Assembly (NCBI GenBank): GCA_025062295.1 | Contig: JANXAJ010000001.1 | Span: forward strand, 1 to 36,166 | DNA length: 36,166 nucleotides | Direction: 5' to 3' | Origin: Bacteroidia bacterium | GTDB lineage: Bacteria > Bacteroidota > Bacteroidia > SpSt-205 | Translations under genes and position numbers: made by a program | The notes under the pieces: generated by a model | Databases searched by the model: none | Told to the model about the DNA's origin: nothing | Seen by the model: the letters and a program-made list of their open reading frames with translations, nothing else | Shown here: positions 12,754-22,448 of the stretch, one piece after another | How the letters are laid out: each line of letters starts with the position of its first letter | Numbering within the stretch: position 1 is the first letter of the stretch

Positions 12754-12991
12754 ATCTTCATCCTGCAGTACAATTGAGCTGAGAGGATGAGGTGGCGAGT
12801 TTCGCTCGCTTGCTGAGTCTTACTCTCTGCGGTGTAGGAGGAAGACAAGACCTGAATAAGAGGGGGCAAGTTGCGCATTCAGCTTTCTTCAGAAGGGAGG
12901 TATATCCTTTCCCAGTCCCGAGTGACGGTCTCCTCTACTTGAAAAGGGAAACTGAATTTACCTAATGCACAAATAAACTTACCTTTACCTC
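12754..12991. other. 238-bp intergenic stretch; nothing firm
   Basis: No gene is visible. A 5-bp hairpin with a 5-nt loop (12795-12809) has no T-tract and is too weak to call a terminator. The promoter of the next gene is at the right end. Confidence 0.4.
12980..12987 (+). promoter_or_regulatory. -7 promoter element (TACCTTTA) of the M43 protease gene
   Basis: One mismatch to TAnnTTTG, ending 4 nt before the ATG at 12992. This placement supports the ATG of the short first fragment as the true start of the whole protease gene. Confidence 0.5.
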
Positions 12992-13207
12992 ATGAGCCTC
13001 TTCAATTCCCATCTTCTCGCTTTTGGGCTTATAGGCATCCTCTTAGGTCAAGGATTCCATTGTGGAACCATGGAAGTAGAGAGTCTCAAGCGAGCACTCT
13101 ATCCGGACTGGCCGCGCTTAGATGCGTATGAGCCCTTTTTGCGGGCAAGGGTGCAGGCTTACAAGGCACTCTATCGTCAGGGACTAACGATCGGGGGGGG
13201 TATATAA
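12992..13207 (+). CDS. N-terminal fragment of the M43 metalloprotease (signal peptide and prodomain)
   Basis: 71 aa. A signal peptide (about residues 1-21, ending in GILLGQGF) is followed by CGTMEVESLKRALYP, the short Cys-containing segment that begins many Bacteroidota M43 proteases. The frame ends at 13207, just after a run of eight G (13193-13200). With seven (or ten) G the frame would continue into V-Y-K-I-P-V-V-V-H-V-I-H, the usual first strand of the protease domain, which is exactly what the next frame encodes. This fragment and the next are therefore one gene of about 1566 codons split by a one-base change. Confidence 0.85.
   Translation: MSLFNSHLLAFGLIGILLGQGFHCGTMEVESLKRALYPDWPRLDAYEPFLRARVQAYKALYRQGLTIGGGI
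13193..13200 (+). repeat. Run of eight G at the frameshift in the M43 gene
   Basis: The homopolymer separates the signal-peptide frame from the protease frame. Loss of one G or gain of two restores a single frame. It could be a sequencing or assembly error, a slippage site, or a true mutation. Confidence 0.9.
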
Positions 13208-13214
13208 AATACCC

Positions 13215-16200
13215 GTGGTGGTTCATGTGATTCATGATGGGGAGCCTGAAGGAGTGGGAATGAATATCCCTACCGATAATATTCTGCATCAGATAGAAGT
13301 TCTGAATGAAGATTTCAGGCGGCGTCCAGGGACTCGGGGCTGGAACGAAGATCCACGAGGGGCTGATGCTCGGATAGAGTTCGTCCTTGCTCGGCGGGAC
13401 CCGAATGGCAACCCCACTACCGGGATCAATCGGATTAATCGTCATCTTCAAGGATGGACTGCTCCTCCCTACGACAAGGCCTACATAGAAAATACCATCA
13501 AGCCTGCCACTATCTGGGACCCTACCCAGTATTTCAATATATGGGTGATGGAGTTAGAGGGCACTCTTCTTGGATATGCCCAGTTTCCAGCTGCCTCTGG
13601 ACTCTTGGGTATGCCAGGCGATGAGGATATGGGCTCCTGTCTTCCTGGTGCGAATACGGATGGAATCGTTCTCAAGTACACTACCTTCGGCTCTGTAGAA
13701 AAGGGTTCTACTGGGCTGATGGGGGGGTATGACTTAGGACGCACGACGACTCATGAGGTGGGGCACTGGCTTGGACTTCGTCATACTTGGGGAGATGGGG
13801 ACTGTAATGTAGATGATTTTTGTGATGATACCCCTATCTGCAGCGATCCTCATTGGGGTTGTCCCTCTCCAGCACCGTCTTCTTGCGTCCCTGGTGTTCC
13901 TCGCATGATAGAGAACTACATGGACTACTCAGGTGATTACTGCTTCAATATATTCACGCTAGAGCAGGTGCTTCGGATGCGGACGGTTTTGGAGACTTGT
14001 CCAAGGCGACGCACTCTCCTTACCTCTCCCGCTCTTATCCCTCCGACCACTGTTGATGCAGCACTGATTTCCCTACCCTCTCCTCAAGACCTGTGTCCAG
14101 GTATCTATCCTATCCCTGTCCTTATTCGCAATAATGGAACTCAACCTCTCACTACTATTCCTGTCGCATATCGTCTCAATAACGGACCATGGCAAACTGC
14201 CACATGGACTGGCAACCTTAGCCCGGGTGGTACCGCAACTTTCCTTATTCCGAATGTAAACCTTGCTAATCCAGGGGAATACACTCTCACTGCGTGTACG
14301 AATCTACCTAATGATCCTGATCGGAGTGAGGACACTGTCATTACTCAACTTTTGGTGCATGAAGGAATCTTTCCTTTCTATGTGGATTTTGAACAAGGTG
14401 GAGAAGCTCCTCCCTCTCCTCCCAATCTCTGGCAAGTGGTTGATCCAGACGCAGACTGTTTCACTTGGCGGACTGCTTCTTGCATAGGAAGTGATGGACA
14501 ACCTACTACGGCGATGTACATTAATTTCTGGGGCTATAGCGAAGTAGGAAGGCGAGATGAGCTTTATACTCCCATCATAGATCTCACAAATGCTCCTAAT
14601 GATGTCCAAATTCTTTTTGATATAGCCCATAGGCGATATGATAATACAACCAGCGATGAGCTTCGAGTAGAAATATCTACAGATTGTGGTCAGACATGGC
14701 AGCCTATGCCCATATTTCAGCAGTCTGGTGCAGCTCTTGCCACAGGTCCTAATACAACGAGCCGATTCATTCCATCCGCAGCGAGTGATTGGCAACTCAG
14801 GAGCGTCTCTTTAGCTAATTATGTTGGACAGAAGATTCGGCTACGTTTCGTTGGCGTGAACGGATATGGAAACTGCCTATGGATTGATAACATACGTTGC
14901 ATCAGTCCTAGCCTTTCTACGTGCCTCTACCTGATGAACTCTGTTTATCAAGATGTTCCGTTAGGTTTGGCTAACTGCTGCGGAGGAGTAGAATTTTATG
15001 ATAGTGGAGGACCAAATGGGAGCTACTCAAATAAGGAAGAGCGAACATTTATTTTCCGAGCGCCGGAGAATCAAGAAGTGCGTGTAGAGTTCTCTACTTT
15101 TTCCCTTTTGGGGGGAGACACCTTGTATGTTTATAATGGGGCTTCAGCTACTTTGATTGGTGCCTATAGTGGCAATAGCCTTCCCCCCGTTGTAACGAGC
15201 TGGGGAGGCAGTCTTACTTTTCGGTTTATCTCTGATGCAACTGGCACTTCAGCTGGATGGGCAGCTGCTGTAGAATGTCTGGCAGGTCCGAGCGCTTGTA
15301 CTTATTGGATGCCCGCAGGTGGAAGCCGATATGTGGAGCTTACTTCTCGGGGCTGCTGTGAAGCTGCCTCTTTTTATGATGCTGGGGGAAGTGGCGGTTC
15401 CTATGCGCCGAATGAGAGAGGAATCTTAACCTTCGCAGCTTCTTTTGGCCAGCAAGTTCGGGTGGAATTCTCTGCTTTTGAGCTGACCACTGGTCAGGAT
15501 AGCCTATATGTGTATAATGGAACTGATACGACTGCTCCCCTTCTAGGCAGTTACACAGGTATTCGCTCGCCTTTCTCTGTTACGAGCACGGCAGGCAGCC
15601 TTACCTTTCGGTTTGTTTCTCACTCTACAAATCCCTCCCCTGGCTGGATGGCTTCAGTTCAGTGTATAAATCTATCTCCCTGGTGTGAATACTTTATGTC
15701 TTCTTCTCAACGCATAGACATTGCTGCGTCGGGGTGCTGCGGTGGTGGTCAATTTTATGACAGTGGAGGTCCGCTTTATGACTATGGAGATAGCGAGGAT
15801 CAAATTATTACCTTTCTTGTGCAGAATAGTCAGCAGATCCGAGTGGAATTCACTGAGTTTGACTTAGAGCAAGGATATGATTATTTAGAGGTGTATGATG
15901 GCCCCTCAACTACCGACCCTATGATAGGGAGCTATACGGGTGGCGGTCTTCCCCCCGTTATCCTCAGTAGTGGAAACGCTCTTACTTTTAGATTTCAATC
16001 AGATGGATCAATTACAAGGGCAGGATGGCAGGCGCTGGTTAGCTGTTTTGGATGTGGGGCGCCTGTGATTGAAGTGCTTTCAAATAGTCCTGTATGTACG
16101 GGAGAAACGATTGAGCTCTCGGCAGTGGTAAATGGGTGTGGTCCTTTCACCTATGCTTGGAGCGGGCCGGGAGGCTTTAGTAGTGTGGAGCCAAACCCTT

Positions 16201-17693
16201 TTCGTCCAAACGCCACTCCTGCGGATGCTGGGACTTATATCCTTACTGTCACAGATGGGGAGGGCTATAGTTCCTCGGCTTCTATTGAGGTGGAAGTAAC
16301 TACCATAGATACGACAGTGTCTAGGGTAGGAAATGCGCTCAGAGTAGCCCAGGCTGGTGCTACCTACCGATGGATAGACTGTGATGATCCGAGTGAAACG
16401 ACTTTAGCAACTCAACAGGGATTTGCTCCGATCCGAGATGGACGATATGCTGTCGTAGTGGAATACAATGGTTGTACCGCTCGCAGCAGCTGCCACTTTT
16501 TCAGCTCATGCGGACCTCTTCAAGTTAGTGCCACTGCGTCTCCCTCTGTATGTGTAGGTGCGGTCATTTCCCTTTCGGCTCAGGTGAGTGGTGGGTGTCC
16601 CCCCTATACCTACAATTGGAGTGGTCCAGCGGGCTTTACGAGTACTGCTTCTAATCCTACTCGTCCCAATGCTGATCCCTCTCACAGTGGCATTTATACT
16701 CTCACCGTTATAGATGCTGCGGGTACGAGCCTCTCTACGCAGGTCTCTGTCAATGTGATAGCTGTAGATACAGGCGTGCAGCAAGCGGGAGCTACTCTGA
16801 TTGCTCTTCAGAGTGGGGCGAGTTATGCATGGATTAGCTGTACTGATCCGAATCCATCTATCCTTAGTACTCAGCGGAGTTTCACTCCTTCCCAAGCGGG
16901 TTCATATGCAGTCATTATAGAGTTTCAAGGCTGTCAAGATACCAGCGAGTGTTATGAAGTGGCTCCATGCGTGAATACTTACCCACGGGTTATCGCTTCT
17001 TCAAATAGTCCTGTGTGTAGGGGAGATACCCTTTTCCTTTCCGCTCAAGTGGAAGAGGGCTGTCCACCTTATACTTATAGCTGGAGTGGTCCAGCGGGCT
17101 TTACGAGTAATCAAGCGAGTCCGATTCGCCCCGCTGTCCAATCCTCCCATGCTGGCATATATCTCGTAGAGGTTTTTGATGCCCAACAGCGGGTCGCTTC
17201 TGGAAGCGTAGCTGTTTTCATTCAGTCCATAGATACTGCTGTTCTTCATCAGGGGGATACACTAATCGCTGTCTTCGTCGGTGCTTCGTCTTATGAGTGG
17301 ATAGATTGTGCAACAGGCTCTATTTTAGGGAGGGATCGCATATTCTCTCCTTCTGCTAGCGGAAGCTATCGCCTGCGCGTATATAGCGGTGAATGCGTTG
17401 ATTCGAGTGCATGCTTCTCAGTAGACCTTTCTTCTACCGCTTTCTCTAATGTGTCCAGCAATGAACCCGTTCGGATTTATCCTAATCCAACAGAGGGCAT
17501 TTTGTACATTCAAGCCAGAAGCTCCCTCGTTTATGCTCGGCTCTTAGACGGAGTAGGGCGAGAGGTCTATTCCCGTCAGCCTGTAAGGGGAGGGCAGCTC
17601 TCTCTGCAAGGGCTTGCTGCAGGGCCTTATGTGCTAGAAGTAGAAGTGGAAGGGGTGCTGCGGTGGTACCGGATCTGGCTTATCAAGCCGTGA
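13215..17693 (+). CDS. M43 (pappalysin-like) metalloprotease with CUB and Ig-like repeats and T9SS sorting domain
   Basis: 1492 aa from a nominal GTG; the true start is probably 12992, via the frameshift at 13193-13200. The zinc motif HEVGHWLGLRH is at residues 180-190, followed by Cys-rich DDFCDDTPIC and the Met-turn YMDYSG, as in family M43B. Next come a CARDB-like Ig domain (~277-390) and a jelly-roll-like region (~390-560). Three CUB-like domains start near residues 570, 695 and 824, each with GCC...FYDSGG and LYVYNG-type blocks. Three ~152-aa Ig/PKD-like repeats start near 947, 1099 and 1252. A T9SS sorting domain ends the protein (YPNPTEG ... WYRIWLIKP). It is expected to be secreted by the T9SS and either released or anchored at the cell surface. 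The last 11 nt overlap the convergent EamA gene. Confidence 0.88.
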   Translation: MVVHVIHDGEPEGVGMNIPTDNILHQIEVLNEDFRRRPGTRGWNEDPRGADARIEFVLARRDPNGNPTTGINRINRHLQGWTAPPYDKAYIENTIKPATIWDPTQYFNIWVMELEGTLLGYAQFPAASGLLGMPGDEDMGSCLPGANTDGIVLKYTTFGSVEKGSTGLMGGYDLGRTTTHEVGHWLGLRHTWGDGDCNVDDFCDDTPICSDPHWGCPSPAPSSCVPGVPRMIENYMDYSGDYCFNIFTLEQVLRMRTVLETCPRRRTLLTSPALIPPTTVDAALISLPSPQDLCPGIYPIPVLIRNNGTQPLTTIPVAYRLNNGPWQTATWTGNLSPGGTATFLIPNVNLANPGEYTLTACTNLPNDPDRSEDTVITQLLVHEGIFPFYVDFEQGGEAPPSPPNLWQVVDPDADCFTWRTASCIGSDGQPTTAMYINFWGYSEVGRRDELYTPIIDLTNAPNDVQILFDIAHRRYDNTTSDELRVEISTDCGQTWQPMPIFQQSGAALATGPNTTSRFIPSAASDWQLRSVSLANYVGQKIRLRFVGVNGYGNCLWIDNIRCISPSLSTCLYLMNSVYQDVPLGLANCCGGVEFYDSGGPNGSYSNKEERTFIFRAPENQEVRVEFSTFSLLGGDTLYVYNGASATLIGAYSGNSLPPVVTSWGGSLTFRFISDATGTSAGWAAAVECLAGPSACTYWMPAGGSRYVELTSRGCCEAASFYDAGGSGGSYAPNERGILTFAASFGQQVRVEFSAFELTTGQDSLYVYNGTDTTAPLLGSYTGIRSPFSVTSTAGSLTFRFVSHSTNPSPGWMASVQCINLSPWCEYFMSSSQRIDIAASGCCGGGQFYDSGGPLYDYGDSEDQIITFLVQNSQQIRVEFTEFDLEQGYDYLEVYDGPSTTDPMIGSYTGGGLPPVILSSGNALTFRFQSDGSITRAGWQALVSCFGCGAPVIEVLSNSPVCTGETIELSAVVNGCGPFTYAWSGPGGFSSVEPNPFRPNATPADAGTYILTVTDGEGYSSSASIEVEVTTIDTTVSRVGNALRVAQAGATYRWIDCDDPSETTLATQQGFAPIRDGRYAVVVEYNGCTARSSCHFFSSCGPLQVSATASPSVCVGAVISLSAQVSGGCPPYTYNWSGPAGFTSTASNPTRPNADPSHSGIYTLTVIDAAGTSLSTQVSVNVIAVDTGVQQAGATLIALQSGASYAWISCTDPNPSILSTQRSFTPSQAGSYAVIIEFQGCQDTSECYEVAPCVNTYPRVIASSNSPVCRGDTLFLSAQVEEGCPPYTYSWSGPAGFTSNQASPIRPAVQSSHAGIYLVEVFDAQQRVASGSVAVFIQSIDTAVLHQGDTLIAVFVGASSYEWIDCATGSILGRDRIFSPSASGSYRLRVYSGECVDSSACFSVDLSSTAFSNVSSNEPVRIYPNPTEGILYIQARSSLVYARLLDGVGREVYSRQPVRGGQLSLQGLAAGPYVLEVEVEGVLRWYRIWLIKP
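14922..16050 (+). repeat. Three tandem CUB-like coding repeats
   Basis: Units begin at about 14922, 15297 and 15684 (about 375-387 bp each). Each starts with a Cys, contains a Cys-Cys pair and FYDxGG, and ends near an aromatic GW-x-A-x-V-x-C motif. They are similar as protein but have diverged in DNA sequence. Confidence 0.75.
16053..17434 (+). repeat. Three tandem Ig/PKD-like coding repeats
   Basis: Units begin at 16053, 16509 and 16968 (456-459 bp). Shared blocks are SP-x-C-x-G, GCPPYTY-x-WSGPAGF and AG-x-Y. Units 2 and 3 share an identical 28-base stretch (16617-16644 and 17082-17109), and units 1 and 3 share near-identical DNA around 16079 and 17001. This suggests recent duplication or gene conversion within the gene. 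Confidence 0.8.
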
Positions 17694-20343: not shown

Positions 20344-20416
20344 GCGGGAGTAGCTCAGCTGGTAGAGCGTCAGCTTCCCAAGCTGAAGGTCGCGGGTTCG
20401 AAGCCCGTCTCCCGCT
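20344..20416 (+). tRNA. tRNA-Gly (anticodon CCC)
   Basis: 73 nt folding as a cloverleaf. The acceptor stem GCGGGAG/CTCCCGC has discriminator T. The D arm contains AGCTCAGCTGGTAGAGC. The anticodon stem TCAGC/GCTGA encloses the loop TTCCCAA, giving anticodon CCC for GGG codons. The T arm has GGTTCGA. The 3' CCA is not encoded (the genome reads CACC after the discriminator). Confidence 0.95.
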
Positions 20417-20456
20417 CACCTGTAGCGTGAGAGATGGAGCTTTCATACTCTGGTGT

Positions 20457-22448
20457 ATGAGTTCAAAAGCAAGGCAGGGTTGTCTTCTGGGGCTTCTCCT
20501 TTGGGCTCAGCCTTTGGAGGTTACTTACAAAGTAGAGGTCTCAACCGTAGCGGGAAGTGGACGCGTAGGATATAAGGGCGGAGCTGCCTTAGAGGCAGCC
20601 CTAAACCGTCCAAATGGGATTTTCGTTGATAAGACGGGCACGATTTACTTCTCGGATGACCACAATCACTGTGTCCGAAAAGTAACGCCCGATGGGCGGG
20701 TTGTATTAGTGGCAGGGCGTCCCGGGAGTGCCGGATATGAAGAGGGCGAGCGAGAGGAAGCCGCTTTCAATAGTCCCCATGGACTGACAGCCGATGGCAA
20801 TGGCAATCTATATGTGTGTGACTACTTCAATCATGCGATTCGCAAGATTACCCCTGGGGGTGAAGTAAGTACATTTGCAGGAGGAAAAGGGGGGGGGTTC
20901 AAAGACGGACCTGCTGAGGAGGCTCTTTTCCTTTTTCCAATTGCGATTGTCCGCGATAGCAAGGGCAATCTCTGGGTCCTTGATGGAGGGAATCACGCTC
21001 TTCGCAAAATCACTCCTCAGCGTCGGGTTATTACCGTAGCAGGTGATGGTTCCCCTGGCTACCAGGATGGGCCTGGCAAGCGAGCCCAGTTCAATTCTCC
21101 CGTTGGGCTTGCTATCAGCAAGGAGGATCACCTATATGTCGTAGATGCAGGGAATCGCTGCATTCGTCGGGTGCTGCCCGATGGGACAGTCAGTACCTAT
21201 GTGGATTTGAGCTTCAAAGGATGGACTATCCGAGGTGAATTGATGGGGGGATTGAGCTTTGCTACTTCTGGAGGCGGACATGGCGGTGGTGTCGCTGTAG
21301 ATGAGGAAGGGAATCTTTATATCGCCGATGGCGGACGTCATATCGTCTATCAAATCAACGCAGCCGAAAGGACAGTGGAAATTCTGGCAGGCAGTGGAAG
21401 GCCCGGTTGGATAGATGGGAATGGCAAATTTGCTCGCTTCCATGAGCCAGTAGAGATATGCATAGGGGAAAAGCCGAACGTCTTCTACGTATGCGACTAT
21501 CGGAATGCTGCAATTCGCCGCATTAGTATAGAGAAGCTGGAAAAATATCGGCGCCCTGTCGTGGCAGATACATCCAAGGCTCTGACTTCTATCCCTTTAG
21601 TGGTACGGGTGATAGAAGCAGGGTCCAAACAGCCGCTGAGCGGAGTCCAGCTCAAGGCTACCCCTGCGCAGAAGGGGTTTCCCCTCTCAACAAATGCATC
21701 AGGGGAGGCTCAAGCTGAGCTGATTCCCGGCAATTATACTCTGACGCTCTCAGCCGAAAAGGAAGGATATAAACCCCAGCAAAAGGCTCTCAAAGTTACA
21801 GGACAACCGCTGGAGGTAGAAATAGAATTGGTAAAAGAAGCTCCTTTGCCACCACCTCCCTTCTTTATCCGAGTTTTGGATGAAAATACGCTCACTCCCT
21901 TAGAGGAAGCCCAAGTTCGCATTATCTCGCAAGGTTCGCTTCTTCAAGCCGGTACTACTTCTTCCCAAGGCGAGTACCGATCTACGCTTTCGGGAAATGC
22001 AGAGATTGAGATTGAGAAGAAAGGCTATTTTCCCTTTAGAGGATGGACCTATATTCGTCCTGGTGATTCTATTGTTGTGCGACTCAAGCCAGCAGTGGTA
22101 GGAGCTATTCTCCGAGAGACTCGGATTCTCTTCAAACCGAATAGTCCGCAGTTAGAGCCTGAATCCTATCCAGTACTGGATCAGATTGCAGACTTTCTGA
22201 GGAAAAACCCCCATATTCGCCTTCGTATACATGGACATACAGATATTGGGGACCCAGATCCTCGACACAATCAGCGGCTGTCAGAGGAGCGGGCTATCAA
22301 TGTTCGTCAGTATCTTATCAGAAAGGGGATTGACCCTGCTCGGTTAGAAGCGGTAGGTCATGGGAATACTCGTCCGATTGCAGATAATCGTACTCCCGAA
22401 GGAAGAGCTCAGAATAGACGGGTTGAATTTGAGGTGATTTCGCCCTGA
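20457..22448 (+). CDS. NHL beta-propeller protein with two regulatory-like domains and OmpA C-terminal domain
   Basis: 663 aa from the ATG at 20457, chosen because MSSKARQGCLLGLLLWAQP reads as a signal peptide; a GTG at 20427 would add ten residues. Six NHL repeats (about residues 48-370; NG-x-x-VD...LY-x-xD...N-x-x-IRK-pattern) form a propeller. Two carboxypeptidase-regulatory/PEGA-like beta domains follow (~378-450 and ~467-545). Residues ~554-663 are an OmpA-like peptidoglycan-binding domain with HGHTDIG, NQRLSEERA and NRRVEFEV. The protein is probably periplasmic, held to peptidoglycan. The order propeller, regulatory-like, OmpA resembles the T9SS component PorE, though PorE has a WD40/PD40-type propeller and TPRs. 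A run of nine G (20889-20897) lies in frame. Its stop overlaps rnr by 1 nt. Confidence 0.88.
   Translation: MSSKARQGCLLGLLLWAQPLEVTYKVEVSTVAGSGRVGYKGGAALEAALNRPNGIFVDKTGTIYFSDDHNHCVRKVTPDGRVVLVAGRPGSAGYEEGEREEAAFNSPHGLTADGNGNLYVCDYFNHAIRKITPGGEVSTFAGGKGGGFKDGPAEEALFLFPIAIVRDSKGNLWVLDGGNHALRKITPQRRVITVAGDGSPGYQDGPGKRAQFNSPVGLAISKEDHLYVVDAGNRCIRRVLPDGTVSTYVDLSFKGWTIRGELMGGLSFATSGGGHGGGVAVDEEGNLYIADGGRHIVYQINAAERTVEILAGSGRPGWIDGNGKFARFHEPVEICIGEKPNVFYVCDYRNAAIRRISIEKLEKYRRPVVADTSKALTSIPLVVRVIEAGSKQPLSGVQLKATPAQKGFPLSTNASGEAQAELIPGNYTLTLSAEKEGYKPQQKALKVTGQPLEVEIELVKEAPLPPPPFFIRVLDENTLTPLEEAQVRIISQGSLLQAGTTSSQGEYRSTLSGNAEIEIEKKGYFPFRGWTYIRPGDSIVVRLKPAVVGAILRETRILFKPNSPQLEPESYPVLDQIADFLRKNPHIRLRIHGHTDIGDPDPRHNQRLSEERAINVRQYLIRKGIDPARLEAVGHGNTRPIADNRTPEGRAQNRRVEFEVISP

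Follow-up and report, generated by a model that had tools for sequence, protein, structure and literature searches.

An isolated one-base break at a run of eight G in a predicted secreted M43 protease gene of a Bacteroidia genome

In the stretch of Bacteroidia DNA that was analysed here (the window; 36,166 nucleotides of contig JANXAJ010000001.1, assembly GCA_025062295.1), a run of eight G (G8) divides the gene of a large, predicted secreted protease into two reading frames. This G8 is probably an isolated, non-programmed +1 homopolymer break (probability about 0.8), and no regulation appears to be involved at the run. As the source of the extra G, an assembly consensus error comes close to an even bet, while a recent mutation is put forward more tentatively. 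These probabilities are judgements and were not computed, the rival explanations overlap, and a fixed pseudogene is counted as a sub-case of recent mutation. The initial annotation had raised a phase-variable switch and transcriptional slippage, with sequencing error as the simple alternative. Isolated homopolymer breaks in metagenome-assembled genomes are easily taken for switches; a family alignment, a genome-wide census of runs and an in-genus dnaX control together allow an accidental slip site to be told apart here from one that is maintained.

Organization of the interrupted protease gene

The coordinates first assigned to the G8 are exact in the given sequence. The features of the gene and of the region directly before it are as follows.

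12980–12987, forward strand: TACCTTTA, a 7/8 match to the Bacteroidota TAnnTTTG box, shortly before the ATG
12992–13207, forward strand: first fragment, 71 aa, with signal peptide and prosegment; Cys24 at 13061–13063, the cysteine-switch position by analogy with cytophagalysin C24 (PMC11674741)
13193–13200, forward strand: G8 over the conserved Gly-Gly codons, the frame-break site
13209–17693, forward strand: second frame, with M43 pappalysin-type catalytic domain, three CUB domains, Ig/PKD-like domains and type IX secretion sorting tail
13752–13784, forward strand: HEVGHWLGLRH, the metzincin zinc site HExxHxxGxxH, aligned to HEVGHWLDLRH of mirolysin
17475–17651, forward strand: Por_Secre_tail, the C-terminal type IX sorting domain (E 1.5e-5; 25.6 bits, just under the 27-bit cut-off)

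The frame from the ATG at 12992 ends in TIGGGI with a stop at 13207. The frame starting inside the G8 reads ...GGVYKIPVVVHVIH and is open as far as 17693, with no stop in the approximately 1,500 codons 3′ of the run. Residues 1–69 of the first fragment align to the N-termini of intact relatives, indicating that both frames belong to one gene. A signal peptide in the 71-aa frame and a protease domain in the next had been proposed in the initial annotation, and both the translations and the matches to M43, CUB, Ig/PKD and Por_Secre_tail agree with this. The N-terminus of the first fragment is signal-peptide-like by inspection, and the second frame matches Peptidase_M43 (PF05572; E 7.9e-14). Mirolysin (E 2.3e-47) and ulilysin align along the length of its catalytic domain, and both the extended zinc motif and the Met-turn of the M43 lower pappalysins are present (NYMDYSGDYC, with MDYS as the Met-turn motif). 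Cys24 aligns with the cysteine-switch position of cytophagalysin, mirolysin and ulilysin; in cytophagalysin C24 is the putative cysteine switch, and mirolysin and ulilysin have their switch Cys at the equivalent place (PMC11674741). The prosegment is present but, as assembled, out of frame with the catalytic domain. From these domains the gene product is predicted to be a secreted M43 protease, and translation as assembled would yield only a 71-aa secreted stub.

The promoter that had been placed before the first fragment was upheld in part. The TAnnTTTG-like box has an exact TAnnTTTG counterpart at the equivalent place in 9 of 13 relatives (read by eye), whereas a search for a sigma-70 promoter site ahead of the first fragment gave no match.

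The break site in relatives and paralogues

The 13 gene copies compared come from the genus and the family of the window copy, and one of them is a paralogue on contig C23 of the same genome; the other comparison genomes are of other species, the nearest with approximately 74 % identity in the protease. The nearest named relatives are metagenome-assembled Bacteroidia (KatS3mg025, KatS3mg026, SKW103 and others), and their names suggest a hot-spring origin. All 13 copies are uninterrupted through the site and have a conserved IG(G/E/D)VY motif, the glycine codons of which vary among copies (GGC GGC, GGA GGT and so on). The intact relatives have a seven-base spacing, which confirms that seven G (or ten) would restore the frame. 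No G-run is found at the site in 12 of the 13 copies; the remaining copy, from KatS3mg026, has a run of seven G that is in frame, and G8 recurs in no relative compared. The preferred reading is that the family motif Ile-Gly-(Gly/Glu/Asp)-Val-Tyr happens to be written GGG GGG G in the window copy and that the assembled sequence holds one G above what the protein frame allows. Either the consensus would contain a one-base error, or slippage during replication would, very recently, have disabled a duplicated and redundant protease gene or be segregating in it.

The C23 paralogue is intact (73 % identical, with a 1233-aa open frame) and there are six weaker M43-like places, making seven further places in the genome. 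Phylogenetic reconstruction grouped the C23 copy among the main orthologues and the window copy, with weak support, in a looser and faster set, on a branch longer than those of the main orthologues. Both the seven further places, one of them a close intact paralogue, and the longer branch are consistent with a fixed pseudogene, in which the species would have lost the window paralogue for good. This is rather unlikely, however, as no second lesion is found across approximately 1,500 codons and the zinc site and sorting tail are intact. Between the window copy and the genus copies, pN was 0.18–0.26 against a near-saturated pS of 0.70–0.85. Third-position differences dominate and, with the low pN, indicate that the frame after the break was constrained until recently. 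The lack of a downstream stop and a pN far below pS likewise imply that any loss is recent.

Genome-wide census of homopolymeric runs

Slipped-strand mispairing at a poly-G tract could switch the secreted protease on and off, with the assembled state being OFF. The gene has a G-run near its 5′ end, an otherwise open frame and a promoter-like box ahead of the first fragment, and G tracts of at least eight vary in Campylobacter jejuni NCTC 11168 (PMC6321876). G-runs were counted across the genome (2.05 Mb in 74 contigs), with expected counts computed from the base context of approximately 470 kb of it. Internal runs are those away from contig ends and gaps; two runs adjoining N gaps were left out, and very long G/C runs at contig ends or N gaps were excluded as assembly junk.

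There were 60 internal G-runs of at least eight (81–93 expected), eight of at least nine (22–26 expected) and, outside assembly junk, none of at least ten (6–8 expected). Counts drop steadily with length, with 244 G7, 52 G8 and 8 G9, in contrast to Campylobacter, whose G-runs have their length peak at 9–10 (PMC6321876). Instead of being maintained, long G-runs are depleted in this genome, as harmful runs would be expected to be, and the G8 as a run is unremarkable. Within the window there were three overlapping G8 matches against 1.34 expected. Frames were judged from stop to stop with manual reading, by which counts could move by one or two: 57 of the 60 internal runs fall within a single open frame, two interrupt a gene and the remaining run is intergenic. 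Among sampled G7 runs, 28 of 30 were in frame, with no split. G-runs of at least eight numbered 69–163 per genome across all 11 genus genomes, contig-end junk included.

A genome-wide repertoire of poly-G switches was rejected, since the runs are no commoner than expected by chance and almost all of them are in frame. Eight apparent G-run breaks (C21:21182, C26:19381, C27:2694, C74:39587, C55:20136, C35:11648, C16:2106 and C73:28453) were resolved on reading as ordinary starts or ends of genes, or as uninterrupted frames. No G-run in the window is longer than the G9 at 20889–20897, which is in frame within an NHL-repeat-like open frame of 673 aa. At contig ends and gap edges, long homopolymers of mixed G/C (and A), reaching C32, look like assembly junk (loci L136–L140, L187, L188, L193, L198, L204 and L211, with L117 and L312 beside N gaps) and would inflate naive homopolymer counts.

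The phase-variable switch of the initial annotation is unlikely on this evidence. The tract is kept in none of the relatives, in each of which a G-run is absent or in frame; long G-runs are depleted genome-wide; eight G is short for a hypermutable tract; and similar one-base breaks occur at a T8 (C7:40290) and at another G8. A species-specific, newly arisen contingency locus, in which the Gly-Gly codons would have drifted to a G-run that switches one of two pappalysin paralogues, is judged quite improbable. A literature search gave no account of phase variation by poly-G tracts in hot-spring-type Bacteroidia, and with mixed run lengths in the reads the locus would be an unusual example of such variation in a free-living member of the Bacteroidota.

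Other one-base frame breaks in the genome

The second gene-breaking G8 (C51:7541) causes a one-base break in the gene of a DUF7948 (SBBP-type) surface protein, the two halves of which match adjacent parts of the DUF7948 profile (1–122 and 123–175). It sits approximately 160 bases from a contig end (locus L214, G000:C51:6041-7702, with the G8 at 1502–1509). Among A/T runs of at least eight, one additional gene is broken by an extra base, at the T8 of C7:40290 (L273, T8 at 1501–1508), leaving 334 and 248 codons; the function of its product is not assigned, and its relatives are uninterrupted and mostly of 525–576 aa. This similar break at a T8 indicates that breaks of this type are not confined to G-runs.

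Two of the three breaks are in large secreted-type proteins, where phase variation is also expected, and this counts against an isolated, non-programmed break. A consensus error is opposed by the finding that most long homopolymers in the assembly are in frame, indicating that such error is not rampant. Of 30 runs sampled in a related genome, one is a clear break. The relative G006 has a GDSL/SGNH-like gene that is interrupted by a G8, and also a G19 within or close to a further frame (L325, C1:173084; L339, C1:474630).

A conserved dnaX run as a positive control

An A8–A9 run is present in dnaX in 11 of 11 genus genomes, where it stands at the end of a frame of approximately 390–420 codons, and in most of these genomes a second frame of approximately 150 codons takes over. 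The genome under study has an A9 at 1502–1510 of locus L290 (G000:C20:5941-8949; the relatives are loci L377–L387), and a GAGG-like sequence lies just upstream of the A-run in several genus genomes. The run is a conserved and probably programmed slip site of the known two-ORF kind. Two-ORF dnaX genes have been reported in Chlorobi (PMC3711429), and the A9 of Thermus dnaX is a site of transcriptional slippage (PMC1088944). The protease G8 is unlike a maintained slip site as seen in dnaX. Slippage was also rejected as a general explanation, since the run at the genuine, conserved dnaX site consists of A.

Some full-length protein would be made if transcription slipped at the G8 or if the ribosome slipped by +1 on GGG GGG G: the frames would be joined either by an RNA that is one G short or by a tRNA-Gly that reads GGG and shifts by +1. 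A tRNA-Gly with anticodon CCC, which reads GGG, is encoded at 20344–20417, 7 kb downstream of the G8, and the genus appears to use the dnaX slip site. By frame arithmetic, the ribosome would have to shift by +1 or −2 to join them; a shift of −1 does not. Slippage of either kind at the G8 is nevertheless very improbable. The site is not conserved, in contrast to the dnaX run; no clear stimulatory element was found near the G8 (fold z only −2.05); and the sequence just upstream lacks the GAGG-like element of several dnaX sites. In a survey of transcription indels in E. coli and Buchnera, only A and T runs had homopolymer insertions, and runs of G or C were considered non-slippery (PMC5574713). 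The survey makes it unlikely that RNA polymerase rescues the G8 gene in this lineage and weighs against the slippage suggested in the initial annotation.

Comparison with known systems

The protease resembles the lower pappalysins of family M43 (mirolysin, ulilysin and cytophagalysin) in its mirolysin-like catalytic domain, with HEVGHWLGLRH and the Met-turn MDYS, and in the prosegment Cys at the cysteine-switch position. As in cytophagalysin, accessory domains come after the catalytic domain. The window copy differs from these enzymes in that, as assembled, prosegment and catalytic domain are in separate frames.

Like the poly-G phase-variable surface genes of Campylobacter, Helicobacter and Neisseria, the protease gene has a G-run in its 5′ part, a large secreted product and an open downstream frame. 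It differs in that the tract is not conserved in the genomes compared, which are of other species, is not above chance length and is not part of a genome-wide repertoire. With the dnaX slip sites of Thermus and Chlorobi it shares a homopolymer at the frame break, and its own genome has such a run, the dnaX A9. However, the dnaX run is kept genus-wide and the protease G8 is not, and the repeated base is A in the former and G in the latter.

The singleton frame-break genes of the GeneTack survey likewise occur in one genome only, have intact homologues and have a homopolymer at the break. Nothing was found that separates the protease G8 from these genes, whose BLAST-validated singleton breaks were read by GeneTack's authors mostly as sequencing error (PMC3711429).
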